From: an uncultured cyanobacterium
Lineage (GTDB): Bacteria; Cyanobacteriota; Cyanobacteriia; Cyanobacteriales; FACHB-T130
DNA: 51,568 bases
Assembly: GCA_936920195.1 (NCBI GenBank)
Contig: CAKZHE010000217.1
Coordinates: 1 to 51,568 of the forward strand
Direction: 5' to 3'
Shown: in pieces, positions 288-21,317 of the stretch
Layout of the letters: each line of letters starts with the position of its first letter
Numbering within the stretch: the stretch's first letter is position 1
The notes under the pieces: generated by a model
What the model was told of the DNA's origin: nothing
Databases searched by the model: none
Seen by the model: only the letters and a program-made list of their open reading frames with translations
Program-made: the position numbers and the translations under genes

Positions 288-2897
288 CTAAAGCCAATTT
301 CCCACTAAAACGTAAGGGGCCCAGTAGAGGGGATGTTGATAGCGCCGCTCTTTCATAATTGATAGTTGAGCGCGACGCAAGGCTTCGGCTTTGGTGACAG
401 ACGCATTGGAAAGTTGTTGATAGAATTCCACCATTAAGGGAGCGGTGGCAGCATCATCTACATACCAGAGAGTAGCCAAGGTACTACGAGCGCCTGCTCG
501 CACTGCGACTCCTGCTAATCCTAATGCGGCTCGCTTGTCACCTACAGCGGTTTGGCAGGCACTGAGAATTAATAATTCAATGGGGCGGCGTTGCTCTCTC
601 GATTGGAGTAAATTATTGAGTTGATTAACATTGATGCGGTCATCCCAGGTGAGAATAAAAGTGTCTTCAGCTTTGGAACTAAATTGTCCGTGGGTTGCCA
701 GGTGAATGACGGGGAAAGCTGAGGATTCAATGGCTTTTTGAATGGCAGCATCAGTAAAGGATTCATTCAATAACAATTGACCAGTTACTTGAGCATTAAT
801 TTTCTGTAATTCTACTCCGACACTGGGTAAGGAATTAAAGCCGCCGCGAGCTTCGGTGAGTCCGGCGGTAAGGGCGCTGAGATTGCCTCTAGTTAAGGGT
901 TGGGATTCTAATAATTGTAGGCCGGGAGTCAGGGCGATCGCATACTTTTCCAATAAAAATTGTTTCCCATCATGGAGGGTAGACATGGGTAAGTTCCGCA
1001 GGGAACCATCTAAGACAAATACTAAGGTTTTAATTTGATTTTTGGTCAGATCGGCTTCAGCGGGACGGATCAACCAATCATAAACTTTTTGAGATAGGGG
1101 TAAAAACCTTTTTGATGTACGAGTAACGAGGGCTTGACGCAATTGATCGGCGGTTTTGTCTACTTCGGTTTGGCTAAGATAGGTGGTGTAATGGCGTAGG
1201 GGTGCATCTGGGACTGAGAGAATGATTTCTAGTCGGTCTTCTAAAATGATCGGATAGATGACGGCGGCTTTGATATCAACTTGGTCGATTTTGACTTCTT
1301 TGGCATTTAAGCAAGCGGCACGAAAGAAGTTGACTAATTCGGCTAATTGTAAGGATTCAATGACTTCTCGCGCTTTGGAAAGGTTTTTTTGGCTAGTTTC
1401 AGCGGTTTTAGATTCCAGGAGCAAGCCCACTAATTGCCGATAAACTGGTTCGACGCTTTCCCGAAAGGAAAACTGCACATCTGGATTAACTGAGGCTAAG
1501 TCGTTGCGGAGAGCTTGCAGATTATTTACCGCTTCATTGTAAGCTGCGATCGCCTCTTCTCTTTTCCCTTCTCCTTTCAGCAATCGCCCTAACTGCCATT
1601 GCCAGCGATAGGCAATATCTGGAGCATTAATCGATTGGGCTAAAACTAAGGCTTGTTGAGTCAGTTGAATAGCACTGCCTCGCTGTTGAGTCATTTCGTA
1701 CAATCCCCCCAACTGCCCCAGAGCGTAGGATTGGGCGCGAGGATCTCCCAAACTTTGGGCTTGCTGAATTGCCACGGCTAAAATTTGGGCAATTTCTGGC
1801 AAGGCTGGAGTTTGGCTAGAATTATTTGCGCTTAATTTCATTAAGCTTTTGGCTAAGTTAATCCGGGCATCGACGGCGGCGCGACTGGGGGGTAATTCCG
1901 CGAGTTGCCCTTGAATTTGCTGCCAGAGGTTAAGGGCGGTTGATGCTTGTTTGCCCTCGGCTAGCAAGCTGAGTTGATTCAGTTGGGCTTGAATTTTGGT
2001 CAGGGGATAGTTGGCAGCGGCGGCAGCTTGTTGATAATAGGCGATCGCATCTTTATTATTCTGCTTTGCTCTGGCATTGTTACCTAAACTTAACAGGGCG
2101 CTGCTGGTATCCTGGGGTGAAGATAATTTCTCAGCAATTGTTAAACTTTGTTGCAAAACTTTCTCAGATTGATCTAAATCGCCAATTAATCTCAGGGCAT
2201 TGCCTAGGCTTCGCAATCCAGTTGCCTTCACTGTGGAATCGGGCTGATTTTGCAAATCGCTCTGCACCTGTTTGAGAGTTTCTAGGGCGCGGCGATAGAG
2301 TCCTTGGGCTTGTTGGGCTTGGGCTTGATTAATTTGGGCGCGGGTGACTCCCATCCCATCTCCCGCTTGGGCATAGGTGGCGGCGGCTTGCTGCCAGGTA
2401 ACTAAAGCTGGTTCCGCTTGTCCTTGGATAAACTGCCAGCGTCCTTGAATATCTAGGGCTTGGGCGAGTAATTTCAGGCGATCGCCTGTTTCTAAATTGA
2501 TCGATCCGTTCTGCAAAAGTTGTAAACTGGTGGCGATCGCATTTTCGGCTTCCGCCCACTGTCCCAATTGCTGATAGGCTAGGGAAAGATTGCTGAGAGC
2601 GATCGCTTGTTGAGCCTTGTCTCCTTGGTTTTTGAATACCTCAGATGCTTGTTGTAAAACTTGCACTGCCTGGAGAAATCGCCCCCCGTCATAAAAAGCC
2701 TTACCCTGTTGCAGCCAATCGGAGCTAACGCTGGTAGTTCCTGGAACCATTGGTGCTGATTGGTTTGCTGCCAATAATTCCGGCTGGAATCCTAGGGTGG
2801 TGAAACCAGCTAAGATTGTCACGGATAAAATCTTGGTTGACAGCCTGAAGCTACGCTTTTTCAACCTGAAGGAATTTAGGGGCTGTTTTTGAATCAT
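288..2897 (-). CDS. Secreted TPR-repeat CHAT-domain protein
   Basis: This 869-residue protein has an N-terminal basic and hydrophobic segment (about residues 12-45) that looks like a Sec signal peptide or anchor. Roughly ten TPR-like helical pairs follow (about 55-480), with motifs such as ALSNLSLAYQQLGQW and SALLSLGNNARAKQNNKDAI. The C-terminal CHAT domain (about 590-869) keeps the caspase-like dyad: His736 in ATHGQ and Cys781 in LSACQTA. CHAT proteins are caspase-HetF-associated cysteine proteases, and TPRs usually bind the activating partner. The start is supported by a GGAGGT Shine-Dalgarno just upstream. It is divergent from the NB-ARC gene at 3347 across a 449-base gap. The substrate is unknown, and export of a CHAT protease is noteworthy. 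Confidence 0.9.
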   Translation of the reverse strand: MIQKQPLNSFRLKKRSFRLSTKILSVTILAGFTTLGFQPELLAANQSAPMVPGTTSVSSDWLQQGKAFYDGGRFLQAVQVLQQASEVFKNQGDKAQQAIALSNLSLAYQQLGQWAEAENAIATSLQLLQNGSINLETGDRLKLLAQALDIQGRWQFIQGQAEPALVTWQQAAATYAQAGDGMGVTRAQINQAQAQQAQGLYRRALETLKQVQSDLQNQPDSTVKATGLRSLGNALRLIGDLDQSEKVLQQSLTIAEKLSSPQDTSSALLSLGNNARAKQNNKDAIAYYQQAAAAANYPLTKIQAQLNQLSLLAEGKQASTALNLWQQIQGQLAELPPSRAAVDARINLAKSLMKLSANNSSQTPALPEIAQILAVAIQQAQSLGDPRAQSYALGQLGGLYEMTQQRGSAIQLTQQALVLAQSINAPDIAYRWQWQLGRLLKGEGKREEAIAAYNEAVNNLQALRNDLASVNPDVQFSFRESVEPVYRQLVGLLLESKTAETSQKNLSKAREVIESLQLAELVNFFRAACLNAKEVKIDQVDIKAAVIYPIILEDRLEIILSVPDAPLRHYTTYLSQTEVDKTADQLRQALVTRTSKRFLPLSQKVYDWLIRPAEADLTKNQIKTLVFVLDGSLRNLPMSTLHDGKQFLLEKYAIALTPGLQLLESQPLTRGNLSALTAGLTEARGGFNSLPSVGVELQKINAQVTGQLLLNESFTDAAIQKAIESSAFPVIHLATHGQFSSKAEDTFILTWDDRINVNQLNNLLQSREQRRPIELLILSACQTAVGDKRAALGLAGVAVRAGARSTLATLWYVDDAATAPLMVEFYQQLSNASVTKAEALRRAQLSIMKERRYQHPLYWAPYVLVGNWL

Positions 2898-3270
2898 TTA
2901 GACCTCCGGCAAGACAATCATGGGGTAATCTTTGAGTTGAGCTTCCGGGTTGAGTAGAGAGGGAATATTCCCAAAAACTTCGATCTCATCCCTAAGATAG
3001 AGGACTTAGCCTATCATCTTTTAACTATTGGGCGATTTACGCCCTCTGGTGAATAAATCTATTTCTAAAATGAACTCTGATGCGGTAATATTATTTGCGA
3101 TTCCGGATAACAATCCTGGGTGGAGCGATCGCTTATTTCAGTCTAGCATCCCTCATCTCAGTAATTTAACTGAAAAGACGACCAAATTTCATCACTGCAT
3201 CTATAGATCATTTGTGGTTGCTAAACACCAAAATAATTTCACTGTTTATCGAAAAAAAAGTTATTAGGAC

Positions 3271-3300
3271 TTCACAAATTCTTCACAGAACATATATAAT
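3271..3300 (+). promoter_or_regulatory. Sigma-70-type promoter for the NB-ARC gene
   Basis: A TATAAT -10 box lies at 3295-3300 and a TTCACA -35 box at 3271-3276, spaced by 18 bases. A second TTCACA at 3282-3287 makes a short direct repeat inside the spacer, a possible operator. The rest of the 2898-3346 divergent gap shows no convincing gene. Confidence 0.55.
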
Positions 3301-3346
3301 GTAGACAAATGATTAGTGTGTTCCCTTTAACGACGAGGTTGGCATT

Positions 3347-4999
3347 TTGATTCCTCAAGACTTTCTCAAAGCGATTGCTACCGAACATGGAGTCTCTGAC
3401 ACCGAATATCAGGTGTTGTCCCAATCCATCGAAGGTGTCTCCGCAACCTTGATTGCCAAGAATTTAGGCACTCGCCCCGAAGTGATTCGCAATCGCATGG
3501 GCGAAGTGTACAAGAAATTTCACATTCCTGGGGCTGGACCTGGGAAATTGGCAAAATTACAGCAGATTCTAGTTTCGGCTTACCAAGCCCATCAGAGCGA
3601 CCAATCCCGGAATTTTTCCTCGCTGCATTATGCTCCTAGCACAGTGATTGAATCCGACGGTGGCGCTCCCCCACCACGGATTGATTGGAACGAAGCGCCT
3701 GATGTTTCGATTTTCTACGGACGAACTAGCGAATTGGCAGAATTGGAAGAATTAATCGTCAATCAAGGCAGTCGCCTAGTGGGACTGTTAGGAATGGCGG
3801 GAATTGGGAAAACTGCCCTATCGGTCAAATTGGCTAAACAAATCCAAGAGCCTTTTGAATATACCATTTGGCGATCGCTGCGTCATGCCCCATCCCTGAA
3901 AGACCTGCTGGGCAATTTGATTCAGTTCTTTGCTCACTCTTCCAGAACCTATTTACCAGACAATGCTAACGATCGCATCTCTCTGTTGATAGAGTTTCTG
4001 AGCAAGCATCGCTGCCTATTAATTCTGGACAACGCTGAAACAATTCTGCGTTCTGGCGAACTAGCTGGCAAATACCGCGAAGGTTATGAAGGCTACGGCG
4101 AGTTATTCCGCCGCATTGGTGAATCCCAACACCAAAGTTGTTTGGTAATTACCAGCCAAGAAAAACCCGAAGAAATTGCCCTCCTGGAAGGTGAAACTTT
4201 ACCAGTCCGCAGCTTGCAAGTAACTGGACTCAGTGCCGAAGAAGCGCAAGAAATCTTCAAATCCAAGGGTTTAGCCGATCCCGATCAATGGGATAAACTG
4301 GTAGAAATCTACCAAGGCAATCCTTTAGAGCTAAAAATCGCTGCAACTACCATTCAGGAACTGTTTAAAGGCAAGGTGGCTGAGTTCCTCAAACACAGCA
4401 CCTTAATTTTGAATCGGATTCGGGTGTTGCTAGAACAACAGTTCGAGCGCTTGTCGGACTTGGAAAAAGAGATCATGTACTGGTTAGCCATTGAGCGCAA
4501 ATCCGTCTCTTTGGAACAACTACAAACCAATCTCTGGCTGCCAGTTTCCCAAACTGAACTCTTTGACGTGCTGGAATCCCTGGGACGGCGATCGCTGATT
4601 GAGAATATTGTAGAAGGTGATAATACCCTATTTACTCTGCAAATGGTAGTCATGGAGTATGTCACCGAACAATTGATTGAGCAAGTACGCGCCGAAATTC
4701 TGGAAGCGATTAAAACTCAAAAAATCGACCATCTGGAATTAGTCCGCAGTCATGCTTTCTTCAAATCCCCAGCGGTGGAAAGTGGCATCAAACTTTTCCA
4801 ACTCCGTCCGTTGCTGGATATCATCAAAGACCGATTGCTGGTCGTTTTCCGCAGTGAAAATAAGGTAGAGGAGCAATTGAACAAAATTGTGGCTCTGCTG
4901 CCAGCGAAGTCTCCTCTAGAAGTAGGCTATGCGCCAGAGAATCTGCAACATCTGGTTTCTACTTTGAAAAAAGCAGAAGTTTCTGCCAGCGCCAAGTAG
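3347..4999 (+). CDS. NB-ARC (STAND) ATPase with N-terminal HTH-like region, no sensor repeats
   Basis: The 550-residue protein starts at TTG, preceded by GAGG at about 8 bases, and I see no better in-frame start. Residues 1-80 form a helical, winged-HTH-like region (VSATLIAKNLGTRPEVIRNR). The NB-ARC domain follows at about 120-400: P-loop GMAGIGKT at 149-156, Walker B CLLILDNAE near 223-231, an arginine/serine finger-like VITSQEKP, and GNPLEL. A winged-helix region and a 100-residue helical tail end the protein. STAND ATPases act as signalling switches that oligomerise on ligand binding. Most cyanobacterial relatives carry C-terminal WD40 or TPR sensors, and none is present here. It may be a regulator or an adaptor. 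Confidence 0.88.
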   Translation: MIPQDFLKAIATEHGVSDTEYQVLSQSIEGVSATLIAKNLGTRPEVIRNRMGEVYKKFHIPGAGPGKLAKLQQILVSAYQAHQSDQSRNFSSLHYAPSTVIESDGGAPPPRIDWNEAPDVSIFYGRTSELAELEELIVNQGSRLVGLLGMAGIGKTALSVKLAKQIQEPFEYTIWRSLRHAPSLKDLLGNLIQFFAHSSRTYLPDNANDRISLLIEFLSKHRCLLILDNAETILRSGELAGKYREGYEGYGELFRRIGESQHQSCLVITSQEKPEEIALLEGETLPVRSLQVTGLSAEEAQEIFKSKGLADPDQWDKLVEIYQGNPLELKIAATTIQELFKGKVAEFLKHSTLILNRIRVLLEQQFERLSDLEKEIMYWLAIERKSVSLEQLQTNLWLPVSQTELFDVLESLGRRSLIENIVEGDNTLFTLQMVVMEYVTEQLIEQVRAEILEAIKTQKIDHLELVRSHAFFKSPAVESGIKLFQLRPLLDIIKDRLLVVFRSENKVEEQLNKIVALLPAKSPLEVGYAPENLQHLVSTLKKAEVSASAK

Positions 5000-5014
5000 G
5001 AGGTAATCATTAGT

Positions 5015-5039
5015 AGAGACGTTCCGGTGGAACGTCTCT
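5015..5039. repeat. Perfect hairpin, GAGACGTTCC family
   Basis: An 11-bp perfect stem (5015-5025 with 5029-5039) closes a 3-base loop, 15 bases after the NB-ARC stop. There is no U-tract after it. It may act as an mRNA 3' end, but the sequence also resembles a dispersed cyanobacterial palindrome (GTAGAGACGTTCC type). Confidence 0.65.
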
Positions 5040-5085
5040 CACAGGACTCAGGTAGTAATTAGTCTGAAAAACCCAAAAAACCATT

Positions 5086-16300: not shown

Positions 16301-16369
16301 AAATTAGGGAGTCCTTGAGTTTAAAAAAAGCAGCCAGATCTATTTTCTACTATGCGATCGCGAAAATTT

Positions 16370-17569
16370 ATGCGAACTATTGCCGAAATCAATGCCAAAA
16401 TCAAGGCTGGACGGGTGGTGGTCTGGACTGTGGAAGAATTAAAAGCCCGAGTAGTCGAAATTGGGGTTAAACAAGCTGCCAAGGAAGTAGATGTAATTAC
16501 TACTGGCACTTTTGAGCCAATGGAGTCCTCTGGGGCAATTATTAATTTAGGACATACTGACCCGCCGATCAAAATTCGTCAATGCTGGTTGGATGGCGTG
16601 CCTGCTTATGCTGGGTTTGGGGCAGTAGATTTATATCTGGGGGCAACTCAGATGGTGGAATACTCCAATAATAGCGAAACCCCCGATGGAGAGGAATCCA
16701 AAGATCGCGGTGGCGGTCATGTGATTGAAGACTTGATTGCGGGTAAACCCGTTCACCTCCGTGCCATTGGACAAGTAACTGATTGCTATCCCCGCGCTTC
16801 CTTTGAGACGACGATTACCAAGCAGACAGTTAATCAATTGTATCTGTTCAATCCCCGCAATCTTTATCAAAATTTTGTGGTGGGGGTAAATGGCGGCGAT
16901 CGCCCTTTATTTACCTACCTGGGTGTGCTACAACCCAGACTAGGTAATGCTGTCTACTCTAATCCCGGTGGGATTTCCCCCCTGCTCAACGACCCAGATT
17001 TGCAGTTAATTGGGATTGGTACGCGAATTTTTCTGGGTGGTGGCATTGGTTATGTGGCTTGGGAAGGCACGCAACACTTCCCTTTACAAAAACGCTTGCC
17101 CAATCGTACTCCCGTCGGTCCAGCGGCTACTCTGGCGCTCATTGGCGATGCTAAACAAATGAATCCCCGCTGGGTACGAGGGTGTTATTTCAAAAATTAT
17201 GGTCCTTCGATCATGTTAGGTGCGGGTATCCCGCTGCCAGTGCTGCACGAAGAAGTCGTAGCGCGGTGTGCTGTCCAAGACAAAGAATTAGTTGCACCAA
17301 TTATTGATTTTTCCATTCCTAGGCGGGTTCGTCCCACCTTCGGATTAGTGAGTTATGCCCAATTAAAATCAAGTCGGATTGTGATTGATGGCAAAACAGT
17401 TCGAGTTGCGCCCCTTGCCAGCATTTATTTATCCCGACAAGTGGCATTGGAATTAAAGCAATGGATTGAATCAGGTCAGTTTACCCTGACTGAACCTGTG
17501 GCGGCTATTCCGATGGATCGAAATTTTTTACCCCAAGATCGTTGGGGTTCGCAAATGACTTTAGAGTAG
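16370..17569 (+). CDS. Homocysteine biosynthesis protein (HcyBio, DUF39)
   Basis: The start is set at the ATG at 16370 (MRTIAEINAKI), which matches the family N-terminus; an upstream ATG at 16352 would add six residues. The 399-residue protein matches the HcyBio/DUF39 family: VITTGTFEPMESSGAIINLG, IKIRQCWLDGVPAYAG, IFLGGGIGYVAWEGTQH and MNPRWVRGCYFKNYG. HcyBio is implicated in making homocysteine from aspartate semialdehyde and sulfide, usually with ferredoxin-type partners. No such partner or CBS domain is present here. The Cys in RQCW is a candidate active residue. Confidence 0.9.
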   Translation: MRTIAEINAKIKAGRVVVWTVEELKARVVEIGVKQAAKEVDVITTGTFEPMESSGAIINLGHTDPPIKIRQCWLDGVPAYAGFGAVDLYLGATQMVEYSNNSETPDGEESKDRGGGHVIEDLIAGKPVHLRAIGQVTDCYPRASFETTITKQTVNQLYLFNPRNLYQNFVVGVNGGDRPLFTYLGVLQPRLGNAVYSNPGGISPLLNDPDLQLIGIGTRIFLGGGIGYVAWEGTQHFPLQKRLPNRTPVGPAATLALIGDAKQMNPRWVRGCYFKNYGPSIMLGAGIPLPVLHEEVVARCAVQDKELVAPIIDFSIPRRVRPTFGLVSYAQLKSSRIVIDGKTVRVAPLASIYLSRQVALELKQWIESGQFTLTEPVAAIPMDRNFLPQDRWGSQMTLE

Positions 17570-17614: not shown

Positions 17615-17647
17615 AACTGGTTCCCAGGCTCTGCCTGGGAACCAGTT
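17615..17647. repeat. AACTGGTTCCCAGG palindrome
   Basis: Perfect 14-bp arms (17615-17628 with 17634-17647) and a 5-base loop. It belongs to the CCCAGGCTCTGCCTGGG family and may terminate the HcyBio mRNA. Confidence 0.8.
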
Positions 17648-17977: not shown

Positions 17978-18030
17978 GGCCTAGGCAGAGCCTCTCAATA
18001 GGCATTCCCAGGCAGAGCCTGGGAATGAGT
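17978..18030. repeat. CATTCCCAGGC palindrome and half palindrome
   Basis: Perfect 11-bp arms (18003-18013 with 18017-18027) follow a CTAGGCAGAGCCTC half-unit. Same family as 11697-11776 and 43509-43619. Confidence 0.8.
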
Positions 18031-18037
18031 AAATGAT

Positions 18038-18928
18038 CTATTTTTTTAGCACTTTTTTGACTAAATCTGGAATTTGTGCTGGCTGTTCGGCGAGGGGAAT
18101 TTTGGCTTCCTTAAAAGCGAGCATCTTTTCTTGAGCAGTGGTATTATCAACAATAGGTAATGCCATCTGAGCCGCAATTAAACCGCCAAGATCGCTGAGG
18201 GGGGTTTCACCCAGAAATTGCCGCCCCACAAAATAGGCGATCGCTGGTTTATCAATCTTCTCAGTAATATATTGGGCGAGTTTTTCTTCCCCTTTATAGC
18301 CCGCTTGACTAATTAATACAATGGCTTTGGTATTTTTATTCGCTGCCAGTATCGGCAACCAAGTTTCATAGGTAGAAGCAATCATGGCATCGCAACCCAA
18401 ACTAATACTCATGGATTGTCCTAATCCTGCCTGATTGAGCGCTAAAGCTACTTCATAAACTAGGTTGCCGCAGCGACTGATTAAACCTACTTCTCCTGGG
18501 GTATAAAATCGGCTTTCTTGAGTACCGAGTAATAACTTATCGGGAATAATAATTCCCAAACTGCCCGAACCTAAAATAGTTGTTCCCGTCACTGCTGCCT
18601 TGCGAAGCAGAAAAACCATATCTAAGGGGGGAATACCATTGGTCACCAAAATGATTTGGCGAATGCCAGCGGCAATGGCTTCTAAGGCGGCATCCAGGGC
18701 GCTGTAGGGCTGGGTAAAGATAATGCTGATATCGATGGAGCCAACGGCGACTAGAGCTTGTTCTACTAAATCAAAAATGGGGATGTCTTGGAGCAGTTGC
18801 CCCCCTTTTCCTGGACTAACTCCAGCGACAATCTGAGTGCCATAGCTCTGCATCCGCACAGCAGAAAGCGCCCCCAACGGTTCGGCAATTCCCTGGATTA
18901 AAACTTTACTATCTGGGGCTAAATTCAT
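18038..18928 (-). CDS. sucD: Succinyl-CoA synthetase alpha-like (SucD-like) CoA-binding protein, active-site His and Glu replaced
   Basis: The protein has 296 residues, close to the family length of 289. The CoA-binding half (VAGVSPGKGG, FDLVEQALVAVG, ILVTNGIPPLDM) and the ligase half (PGEVGLISRCGNLVYE) align along their whole length with E. coli SucD. At the catalytic positions, E. coli His246 (in GKRMGHAGAII) corresponds to Asp246 in ETPLSDLGGLI, and Glu208 (in IGEIGG) to Gln208 in ISQAGY. The conserved GPNCPG loop is GSGSLG. The phosphohistidine mechanism therefore should not work as usual. It follows the SucC-like gene by 41 bases and is presumably co-transcribed. Its 3' end is duplicated at 17586. 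Confidence 0.82.
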   Translation of the reverse strand: MNLAPDSKVLIQGIAEPLGALSAVRMQSYGTQIVAGVSPGKGGQLLQDIPIFDLVEQALVAVGSIDISIIFTQPYSALDAALEAIAAGIRQIILVTNGIPPLDMVFLLRKAAVTGTTILGSGSLGIIIPDKLLLGTQESRFYTPGEVGLISRCGNLVYEVALALNQAGLGQSMSISLGCDAMIASTYETWLPILAANKNTKAIVLISQAGYKGEEKLAQYITEKIDKPAIAYFVGRQFLGETPLSDLGGLIAAQMALPIVDNTTAQEKMLAFKEAKIPLAEQPAQIPDLVKKVLKK

Positions 18929-18969
18929 AAAACATTACTGGGAAGCGATGCGAGGTGGTTCTGAGTAGC

Positions 18970-20235
18970 TTAATTTCTAGCGGGGGATTTTTTGGCTAAA
19001 GACACCGCTTGGGCGATCGCTTCATTTAAGTCACTTACCCAGTGTACAGGCATTCCCACCAGTTGTTCTTGAAGGCGATCGCTATTTTCCCCCAATAACC
19101 GCAGGACTAACTGGGGATAGAGACGTTCTGGCATTTGATGGCGGCGGGGATGGGGACGTTGTTCGCGGTCAGCAACTCTTTTTAATTCTCGCAGATCTGT
19201 TGCCGCTGACACCCCCAATTCCCTCAGTTGGCGCTGATAATTGGCAGCTAGAACTTCGGCAATTTCTAGTCCTAGGGGGCGCTCTTGATCGCTATCTGCC
19301 GCCACAATGTTAATTAACAGGACTTTCATCCCCTTATCCTGCACTACTCGTTCTAAACCCCGTTCTAATTGCTCTCGCCGTACTGCCGGGGGTAAATAGC
19401 TGCTCCCTTCCCAATCTAAAATTAGACAATGGGCGGGTTTACTGCCAGCAGCGGCAAGTAAATCGGCGATCGCCATCCCCAAACCCTCACCGTTGCAGAG
19501 AATACTAATATTACCATCCCGTTCCAAGGGCTTCAACTCCAATAGAGAAACTCCTGTTTCCGGAGACTGAAGGTTGGTTTTCGCCCCAAACAAGGCTAAA
19601 TTAGGATGGCGACCCAGAGCCGCATCGTTAGCAGTGACTTTGCCATCCAAGGCCATTAAATCCCCAGTGGAACTCACCCCCAAGGGATTGATTTCCACCA
19701 AGTCCAAATCTTTCAGGACAAACAGTTGGTACATTTTCTCTACTACCGCACTGACTGACTGAATCAATGCCCCTTGCAACCCCATTTTCAGCATCAACCG
19801 CCGTGCATAAAAAGGGGAAAATTCTTGATCGACAACCACTGTTTGCATTTGGGCGCGGACTGCTTCCAAATCCATTCCCCCCTCAATCGAGCCTAGCAGT
19901 ACCGGGCGTTGGCTAGCATAGTCCATGACCACAGCCAAATATAATTCCCGTTCAGCATTATATTTAGCCTCTGCCAACACCACTTGGGGATATTCGCCCA
20001 AAATTGGTAAATTAAAGATTGTCCGAGCCGCAGCGATCGCGTCAATAGTATTTTCCACAAACCGCACCCCTCCAGCTTTCCCCCTCCCCCCTGCCCGCAC
20101 CTGAGATTTCAGGGCTACCGGATAGGGAATCTGCAAAGCTTTAATTTCCCTAGGATTGTCAATTTTTTGGGAGGGCAGCACAGGGATGCCCATTTCGCTA
20201 AATAATTCCTTAGCCTGATATTCTAATAAATCCAT
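18970..20235 (-). CDS. sucC: Succinyl-CoA synthetase beta-like (SucC-like) ATP-grasp protein
   Basis: The protein has 421 residues against about 388 in the family. The ATP-grasp half is well kept: MDLLEYQAKELFSEMGIPV, KSQVRAGGRGKAGGV, LVEINPL and ALDGKV. The C-terminal half is divergent. The glycine loop DVGGGAT is replaced by DWEGSSYLPP, and NIFGGIVRCD by NIVAADSDQE. There is also an insertion around 340-370 (basic, RPHPRRHQM). Canonical SucC with SucD links succinyl-CoA hydrolysis to ATP or GTP formation in the TCA cycle. Together with the altered SucD this may be a divergent acyl-CoA ligase or a non-catalytic paralogue. Confidence 0.82.
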   Translation of the reverse strand: MDLLEYQAKELFSEMGIPVLPSQKIDNPREIKALQIPYPVALKSQVRAGGRGKAGGVRFVENTIDAIAAARTIFNLPILGEYPQVVLAEAKYNAERELYLAVVMDYASQRPVLLGSIEGGMDLEAVRAQMQTVVVDQEFSPFYARRLMLKMGLQGALIQSVSAVVEKMYQLFVLKDLDLVEINPLGVSSTGDLMALDGKVTANDAALGRHPNLALFGAKTNLQSPETGVSLLELKPLERDGNISILCNGEGLGMAIADLLAAAGSKPAHCLILDWEGSSYLPPAVRREQLERGLERVVQDKGMKVLLINIVAADSDQERPLGLEIAEVLAANYQRQLRELGVSAATDLRELKRVADREQRPHPRRHQMPERLYPQLVLRLLGENSDRLQEQLVGMPVHWVSDLNEAIAQAVSLAKKSPARN

Positions 20236-20372: not shown

Positions 20373-21317
20373 CTACTGATTTTGCAACCACATTACTAAA
20401 TCATCTACACTGCTGAAATCTAATAACTCTTCACCCAACACCTCTAATTGCTCCACAGACAACTTTTGAATTTGTTCTTGTAATTGAGAAGTCAACAAAC
20501 CACAACGGCGGTTGAGTTGGCGGAAAATCATTGATACTGCCTCTTGTTGCCTTCCTTGTTGCCTTCCTTGTTGAAGTCCTTGTTGAAGTCCTTGTTGAAT
20601 ACCTGTTTCCATCCAACTGGTGACTATTTCCATAACTCCCTCCTGCTGCACTGGCTCAATTCTAGCAAGCTCTCGATCAAAGCTTGCTTGTTCGGCAGTA
20701 TTCAACTTCAGGTAAATATCAATGAATCCAGAGATTAGTTGCAATTGAGCCGGGTTTAGTCCCAAACTTGATAACAATTGCAAAGATACTAATTTGACGG
20801 TTGGACGCTCCTGAATATCCATTTGCATTTTGGACATCAAGGCACTGGCGATGGGATTGGGTTGATTGACAAAATCTCGCCAGTTCAGTCGATTTAACTG
20901 AATGACTCGATAGTTGAACTCCAGCACTCTCCAGCCGGGAAAATCAATGGTATAACTGGTGGGTTCGGGGCGATGAGGAGCATCAAAAGAAAAAATGACA
21001 ACCGGATAAATCGGCAAGGCATATTTTTCGTGCAGCCGAGCGAAGTAACGAAACATTCGCTGGTTAAAATCTGCTTCTGAATAGGATTGGTGTTCGAGAT
21101 GGATGATAAACAGCGAGTCCTGATTCTGGAATCGCCCTTGGACAACTAAATCAGCCTCGTAGCGCTCTCCAGCCGTAACATCAGTAAATATTTCCTGATT
21201 GAGGAAAATTAGGGAGTTCGGCTCTAGATAGGTGGCGACATCGGGTAAAAATAACGCCACAAACTCTGGAAAGAAGGTAGAGAGAAGTTCTTTGAATAAG
21301 CGATCGTGGTTAATCAT
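20373..21317 (-). CDS. Rpn family recombination-promoting nuclease / putative transposase-like protein
   Basis: The 314-residue protein starts MINHDRLFKELLSTFFPEF, typical of cyanobacterial Rpn (PD-(D/E)XK) proteins. The nuclease core spans about 50-100 (ERYEADLVVQGRF, LFIIHLEHQSYSEADF). A helical region with repeats (GLQQGLQQGRQQGRQQ, about 240-256) leads to a C-terminal DUF4351-like helical domain (MIFRQLNRRCGLL, VEQLEVLGEELLDFSSVDDL). Rpn proteins promote RecA-independent recombination and are highly amplified in cyanobacteria. It is flanked by ordinary chromosomal genes. Confidence 0.88.
   Translation of the reverse strand: MINHDRLFKELLSTFFPEFVALFLPDVATYLEPNSLIFLNQEIFTDVTAGERYEADLVVQGRFQNQDSLFIIHLEHQSYSEADFNQRMFRYFARLHEKYALPIYPVVIFSFDAPHRPEPTSYTIDFPGWRVLEFNYRVIQLNRLNWRDFVNQPNPIASALMSKMQMDIQERPTVKLVSLQLLSSLGLNPAQLQLISGFIDIYLKLNTAEQASFDRELARIEPVQQEGVMEIVTSWMETGIQQGLQQGLQQGRQQGRQQEAVSMIFRQLNRRCGLLTSQLQEQIQKLSVEQLEVLGEELLDFSSVDDLVMWLQNQ
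20543..20602. repeat. 12-bp tandem coding repeat inside the Rpn gene
   Basis: Five 12-base units in a row (CTTGTTGCCTTC twice, CTTGTTGAAGTC twice, CTTGTTGAATAC once) encode the Q-rich linker. The unit is a multiple of three, so the linker can lengthen or shorten without frameshift. Confidence 0.9.

Follow-up and report, generated by a model that had tools for sequence, protein, structure and literature searches.

A cyanobacterial SucC/SucD-like pair without the catalytic histidine of succinyl-CoA synthetase, probably kept for a role without phosphohistidine

The closest described systems to the gene pair analyzed here are the alpha (SucD) and beta (SucC) subunits of succinyl-CoA synthetase (SCS) from E. 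coli and Thermus, in which roles have been described for the catalytic phosphohistidine His246 of alpha, its partner Glu208, and Glu197 of beta (available text of PMC10342173). The pair lies at positions 18,038 to 20,235 of a 51,568-nucleotide stretch from an uncultured cyanobacterium of the order Cyanobacteriales (contig CAKZHE010000217.1, assembly GCA_936920195.1), called here the window. It resembles E. coli and Thermus SucCD in fold, domain order, two-gene layout, the ATP-grasp residues of beta, and Lys42 of alpha, and in a fold search the best solved relative was 3ufx, with 38% identity; however, it has lost His246, Glu208, GPNCPG, most of TGxxG, and the LDVGGGAT and GGIVRCD loops of beta. 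The cyanobacterial SucCD that keep both Glu208 and His246 (hereafter Glu/His keepers, e.g., those of Gloeocapsopsis, Aliterella, Leptolyngbya, and Microcoleus) are orthologues with up to 59% identity and a beta partner, but differ from the window pair in having this dyad; most of them have lost Gly17 of TGxxG and Lys42, and alterations of the GGIVRCD loop are frequent (Gly321 in 38 of 88 betas). Another parallel is found in Pat-type acetyltransferases, in which acyl-CoA synthetase domains devoid of the catalytic His have been described as acetyl-CoA sensors (PMC8556138, in the part available). These inactive NDP-forming domains share with the window pair a related fold, the missing His, and the retention of the protein, but they are fused to a GNAT domain, whereas the window pair is made of two separate subunits without one, and a Pfam search with E up to 1 found CoA_binding, Ligase_CoA, Succ_CoA_lig, and ATP-grasp models but no acetyltransferase domain in the pair. 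Citryl-CoA synthetase and ATP-citrate lyase belong to the same fold superfamily, with 22-26% identity to alpha in the fold search, and scored below the SCS chains. We favor, with moderate confidence and from sequence comparison, the reading that the window pair, the only SucC/SucD orthologue found in this organism, lacks SCS function and would be an SCS-derived alpha-beta complex in a non-catalytic, ligand-binding role. The features on which this reading draws are the following, all on the minus strand:

18038..18928, minus strand: SucD-like alpha gene (296 aa), without in-frame stop; its fold model matches SCS alpha chains
18970..20235, minus strand: SucC-like beta gene (421 aa), 41 bases upstream of alpha
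18191..18193, minus strand: Asp246 codon, in the place of the catalytic phosphohistidine His246 (alignment, codon translated)
18305..18307, minus strand: Gln208 codon, in the place of Glu208 (alignment, codon translated)
18554..18571, minus strand: GSGSLG (alpha residues 120-125), in the place of GPNCPG (alignment)
19678..20229, minus strand: ATP-grasp_2 domain of beta (PF08442, residues 3-186; Pfam), active-site residues kept
19693..19695, minus strand: Glu181 codon of beta, equivalent to E. coli Glu197 beta (site-II glutamate), kept
19645..19647, minus strand: Asp197 codon of beta, equivalent to E. coli Asp213 beta, retained in the window but replaced by Asn in the Nostoc-type clade
19282..19311, minus strand: NIVAADSDQE (beta residues 309-318), in the place of E. 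coli NIFGGIVRCD

The nearest solved relatives of both window proteins were SCS subunits. HMMER placed Asp246 on the catalytic His and Gln208 on the Glu of all three SCS alpha chains among the matches listed (3ufx, 1oi7, and 2yv2), with no adjoining gap, and MAFFT alignments agreed. A misalignment around position 246 could be excluded because relatives at 52-63% identity aligned gap-free beside the site and carried Asp, Asn, Gln, or Pro there. The first-pass annotation of this locus had pointed out both residues and GSGSLG in the place of GPNCPG, and if anything understated the case, since the whole alpha protein contains no histidine; its statement that standard phosphohistidine chemistry cannot occur thus holds for this protein. 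E. coli variants changed at His246 and Glu208 are reportedly without overall activity. The TGxxG motif, which we take to be the CoA-binding loop of alpha, is absent, the window reading AEPLG, and Lys42, presumably a CoA-site residue, is kept in the window and mostly lost among relatives. In beta, alignment to the E. coli subunit bore out the annotated mixture of loss and retention: the LDVGGGAT region reads LILDWEGS, and NIFGGIVRCD, which we assume to be the succinate site, reads NIVAADSDQE, but the residues taken here as the ATP-grasp site (K46, G53, R54, E99, E107, E197, N199, and D213, E. coli numbering) are all present. Two replacements for the missing phospho-acceptor were considered and rejected. 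Of 69 His-less alphas, 20 have some His in the aligned segment; the window alpha is not one of these, and this is no shared replacement. In one of the 20 (L134) the His is one residue off, so its His-less status depends on the alignment. Asp246 itself is no general answer either, as clade members carry Asn or Pro and the Nostoc type described below carries Gln. Pfam assigned CoA_binding and Ligase_CoA to alpha and ATP-grasp_2 to beta, with a Ligase_CoA match of beta below the cut-off. The NCBIfam SCS models covered most of alpha and residues 1-311 of beta, and the curated cut-offs were missed by both (203 vs. 353 bits for alpha and 222 vs. 376 bits for beta). The alpha model, with a pLDDT of 84, had a TM-score of 0.89 to the Thermus SCS alpha 3ufx_A and thus has the SCS alpha fold.

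Aligning cyanobacterial homologues at positions 208 and 246, as the first pass had proposed, showed that the loss of His246 recurs across many cyanobacteria, which is not visible from the window sequence alone. We drew 194 genomes of the window's class and took E 1e-36 or better as a strong alpha and E 1e-56 or better as a strong beta. Strong alpha and strong beta were found in the same 76 genomes, and the other 118 had no strong match to either. All 76 alphas were read: His246 was kept in 56, Glu208 together with His246 in 52, and the His was absent in 20. A second draw covered 50 genomes of the window's order, 48 of which have an alpha (19 of the 48 are also in the class sample), and here His246 was kept in only 8 of 48, compared with 51 of 57 class-sample alphas from outside the order. 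In other classes of the phylum, Glu208, His246, TGxxG, and Lys42 were present in 18 of 18 alphas read; within the window's class, Gly17 of TGxxG was kept in 5 and Lys42 in 6 of 190 alphas. Because these two residues are nearly all gone across the class, divergence from canonical SCS seems, on the sequence pattern, to have begun before the dyad was lost. The 80 named loci used elsewhere in this work are the best 80 of 472 relatives nearest the query and for that reason were kept out of these frequencies; L001 and L072 (duplicate and partial) were left out of the alignments, and the partial alpha of G218 (L202) stands outside the counts. Six genomes of family f21 (G010, G059, G045, G070, G081, and G093) lacked a strong alpha relative and had a beta-like match that was more remote (E 2e-12 to 3e-49).

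The history of the dyad was then read from a quick tree of 200 rows with SH-aLRT support only, from which the trait columns and nine very divergent alphas, all His-less, had been removed. Parsimony gave eight His changes on this tree and nine on an earlier tree of 162 rows. Fitch mapping, rooted on 19 outgroup rows forming one side of a branch, gave two large losses. The first comprises 25 Nostoc-type rows (Nostoc, Calothrix, Spirirestis, and family f6; support 100), placed with Glu/His-keeping Gloeocapsopsis, Gloeocapsa, Aliterella, Chlorogloea, and Chroococcus, and 23 of these 25 carry Gln208 and Gln246. The second comprises 35 rows that include the window (support 97), with Coleofasciculaceae, Aphanothece, and several further families; position 246 is mostly Asp or Asn there but varies among Asp, Asn, Pro, His, and Glu. 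The remaining mapped changes were single losses and two apparent regains, which may be mapping artefacts. A coupled loss of Glu208 and His246 was also considered, and independent-pairs tests with six and five pairs on supported branches were not significant, leaving the clade pattern as what speaks for coupling. Two window-clade genomes (L209 and L211) have alphas with Gln208 and Asp246, a mannose-1-phosphate guanylyltransferase-like gene downstream of alpha, and, directly upstream, a type 2 isopentenyl-diphosphate isomerase gene (scanned in L209, with a near-identical start in L211), an enzyme whose number we take to be K01823. In Synechocystis 6803, K01823 is borne by sll1556, the neighbor in numbering of sucD (sll1557) (available text of PMC8385029). 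With this isomerase gene beside alpha, L209 and L211 are probably Synechocystis or close kin, as judged from gene order.

The two clades differ in what they lost besides the dyad. Seventeen betas could be read among the 25 Nostoc-type rows, and Asp213 was replaced by Asn in all 17 and Gly53 by Glu or Asp in 16. The remaining His-less lineages kept K46, R54, E99, E107, E197, N199, and D213 in each beta that could be read (41 or 42 of 42), and Gly53 was Asn in one. Among 115 alpha columns conserved in the Glu/His keepers, the Nostoc type lost nine and the window clade seven, with positions 208 and 246 in both sets and P124, T155, and G207 also among those of the window clade. Among 127 beta columns conserved in the Glu/His keepers, the Nostoc type lost 12 and the window clade three, all in the second domain. 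The naive chance of finding both catalytic alpha columns among those lost was 0.0055 for the Nostoc type and 0.0032 for the window clade, values that ignore kinship and serve only as a guide. We also looked for family-specific residues as a sign of a new function; two alpha and four beta columns separated cyanobacterial from canonical proteins at 85%, and this was uninformative.

Next, pairwise dN/dS was estimated by the Nei-Gojobori method, with beta in alignment and 0.05 < dS < 1; the pairs are not independent, none includes the window itself, and the values are crude. The alphas of the Nostoc type gave 0.09-0.10 (23 pairs), as did those of the Glu/His keepers (0.09-0.10, 63 pairs). The window clade gave 0.20-0.24 for alpha (nine pairs) and 0.12 for the ATP-grasp part of beta, and the second domain of beta was fast in all groups (0.23-0.29). 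The Nostoc type thus bears no resemblance to neutral decay, and the window clade is relaxed yet constrained. Moreover, no inner stop was found in any of 161 alpha frames, one of which is cut by a contig end. The beta match of G007 has two TGA codons within one stretch, and those of G266 and G268 (L239 and L240) have one TAG counted inside the match and none in the extracted frames; in each, beta may be decaying or the match may overrun the gene end.

In the Nostoc type both catalytic centers are changed, yet constraint equals that of the catalytic-looking relatives, which makes phosphotransfer an unlikely function there. The simplest function common to both clades is probably binding, by a ligand-responsive or scaffolding alpha-beta complex, and the pair is probably kept as a ligand-binding regulator or scaffold, a role without phosphohistidine. 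Under this reading, selection would maintain an SCS-fold alpha-beta complex from which the His246/Glu208 dyad and a large part of the CoA and succinate site are missing. In the window clade, beta would bind ATP or ADP at its intact Mg-ATP site; the ligand of alpha would be either a partner protein or a metabolite, perhaps an acyl-CoA; and the putative complex would report or scaffold without a phosphohistidine step. The kept ATP site suggests ATP or ADP as one ligand, or ATP-grasp chemistry with another acceptor. A broader proposal, which we hold tentatively and at somewhat less than even chances, is that much of cyanobacterial "SucCD", including the Synechocystis-like and Nostoc types, may form a new class of SCS-derived, phosphohistidine-free alpha-beta proteins; in one branch an intact ATP-grasp site would drive new chemistry or ATP-dependent signaling, in the Nostoc type both centers would be gone and the role purely regulatory or structural, and metabolic models with an SCS step assigned to these genes would then be wrong.

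Several observations weigh against a binding role. Changes in the ATP site also occur in Glu/His keepers (G53E in 6 and E197V in 2 of 96 betas, with Asp213 kept in 96 of 96), so that Gly53 and Glu197 alone are weak markers of lost function. The dyad loss is less clean than two clades suggest, since His246 is present in 4 of 35 window-clade rows, and Glu208 and His246 also vanish separately (Ser, Lys, Gln, or His at 208 with His246, and Glu208 without His246). The higher dN/dS of the window clade, together with the variable 240-260 segment, fits a partial relaxation. The only long stretch in which the alpha model is unconfident (pLDDT < 50) is 237-262, exactly where position 246 lies, and the beta model is poor (pLDDT 70.7, pTM 0.45), its PDB matches backing the family name only. 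If beta did no more than bind ATP, the retention of its Glu197 and Asp213 would be surprising. Neighborhood clustering of open reading frames of at least 90 aa around 81 alpha copies (the 80 named loci plus the window) yielded no conserved neighbor besides beta that points to a pathway, the commonest other cluster occurring in 17 of the 81 loci. The ligand, the partner, and the binding activity of the pair are themselves predictions.

An unlikely alternative is that the pair is a decaying relic, SCS having become needless once 2-oxoglutarate dehydrogenase was gone. The only PF00549 (Ligase_CoA) match in the 95%-complete genome was the window alpha, and a search for relatives of this alpha likewise gave one match. 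With E. coli SucD as the query, one weak match was added, a 924-aa NDP-forming acyl-CoA synthetase/GNAT fusion (L228, G000:C258:1500-8000, 1065-5068) directly adjoining an acetate kinase gene; it contains SHTG, which we take to be the motif type bearing the catalytic His in the acyl-CoA synthetase family. The window pair is the only SucCD-like one found in its genome. Among the sources and users of succinyl-CoA tested, no clear one was seen, as the relic explanation would have it: the genome gave no match to 2-oxoglutarate dehydrogenase E1, homoserine succinyltransferase, or DapD, and only sub-threshold matches to 5-aminolevulinate synthase and succinic semialdehyde dehydrogenase; 2-oxoglutarate:ferredoxin oxidoreductase, CoA transferases, and methylmalonyl-CoA mutase were not searched for. 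The 118 class genomes without a strong match to either subunit, the relaxed constraint of the window clade, and the stop codons counted in the beta matches of G007, G266, and G268 point the same way. Against decay, dN/dS is well below 1 in every group and 0.09-0.10 in the Nostoc-type alphas, the alpha frames are intact, both genes are co-retained, and the few columns lost include both catalytic ones. In agreement, SucC and SucD proteins were detected in Synechocystis 6803 and were reduced under light-activated heterotrophy (PMC9175036, in the part available). The suggestion of a dead paralogue, made in the first pass, is not supported, because the pair is the orthologue of the single cyanobacterial SucCD rather than an additional copy, and purifying selection acts on its clade.

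Hardly more or less probable than a relic, and likewise unlikely, is a direct ligase, in which the ATP-grasp subunit would make an acyl (or carbamoyl-type) phosphate on a carboxylate and alpha would deliver it, without a phosphohistidine, to CoA or some other acceptor. ATP-grasp ligases commonly form an acyl phosphate directly on a carboxylate, and this possibility would account for the ATP-site residues, Glu197 included, being kept in every readable non-Nostoc His-less beta, and for the stronger constraint on the ATP-grasp part of the window clade than on its alpha. In SCS, however, the ATP and CoA sites are far apart and bridged by the swinging His loop. The swing of this loop is described in PMC10342173 (available text). 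Moreover, alpha has also lost Pro124, Thr155, and Gly207, and beta its succinate loop; no new catalytic residue is fixed at 246, given that Asp, Asn, Pro, His, and Glu all occur there within the window clade; and the Nostoc type altered its ATP site as well. That the pair works as an SCS, by the ordinary mechanism or by a slightly modified one such as Asp246 accepting the phosphate, is very improbable: the SCS fold, the intact ATP-grasp residues, the kept Lys42, the pairing with beta, and annotation practice, by which SucC/SucD "probably" catalyzes the conversion (PMC7133116, in the part available), would fit this, but alpha has no His, same-clade relatives carry Asn or Pro at 246, unfit as phospho-acceptors, and the scores are far below the curated cut-offs.

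Returning to the preferred reading of a non-catalytic, ligand-binding complex, its consequence for the tricarboxylic acid (TCA) cycle is limited. The first pass had argued that a sole pair of this kind would bear on how the cycle closes; the pair is indeed the sole SucCD-like one found, but the argument is weak. Without a 2-oxoglutarate dehydrogenase E1 match, succinyl-CoA would not arise by that route, and 2-oxoglutarate decarboxylase with succinic semialdehyde dehydrogenase is given as a usual cyanobacterial bypass (PMC8385029, PMC7133116, and PMC11546870, in the parts available), so that loss of SCS need not break the cycle. The Synechocystis literature, in the texts available, names SucC/SucD succinyl-CoA synthetase (PMC7133116, PMC9175036, and PMC9855186), and a review states that they probably interconvert succinate and succinyl-CoA (PMC7133116); at odds with it, another paper has SCS absent from cyanobacteria (PMC11546870). 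Among the matches listed in a search of open literature, available in part and with subscription papers mostly outside it, no mention was found of cyanobacterial SucCD with missing catalytic residues. If the enzyme of a substantial fraction of cyanobacteria cannot run phosphohistidine chemistry, the succinyl-CoA node would need redrawing, and a widely kept gene pair would have another function. The actual job of the pair probably differs from the one implied by its database name, succinyl-CoA synthetase. Nature would also have run the conversion of a TCA enzyme into a non-SCS protein more than once, the dyad having disappeared along two paths, in one of which the ATP site was kept and in the other changed as well.

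The two genes are paired in most loci: beta was present in the flank examined in 71 of the 80 named loci, and a check of 13 genomes, in 11 of which no beta adjoins alpha, located it in every one. In the window, an HcyBio homocysteine-biosynthesis gene (16352-17569, plus strand; PF01837, E 3e-149) is convergent with the SucC/SucD-like pair, in keeping with the absence of any homoserine succinyltransferase match from the genome. A DUF4351 protein with a weak YhgA-like transposase match (20373-21317, minus strand) is encoded immediately upstream of beta. Downstream of alpha, two similar 25-base palindromic stretches of the CCCAGGC...GCCTGGG type (17619-17643 and 18003-18027) resemble a small dispersed repeat.

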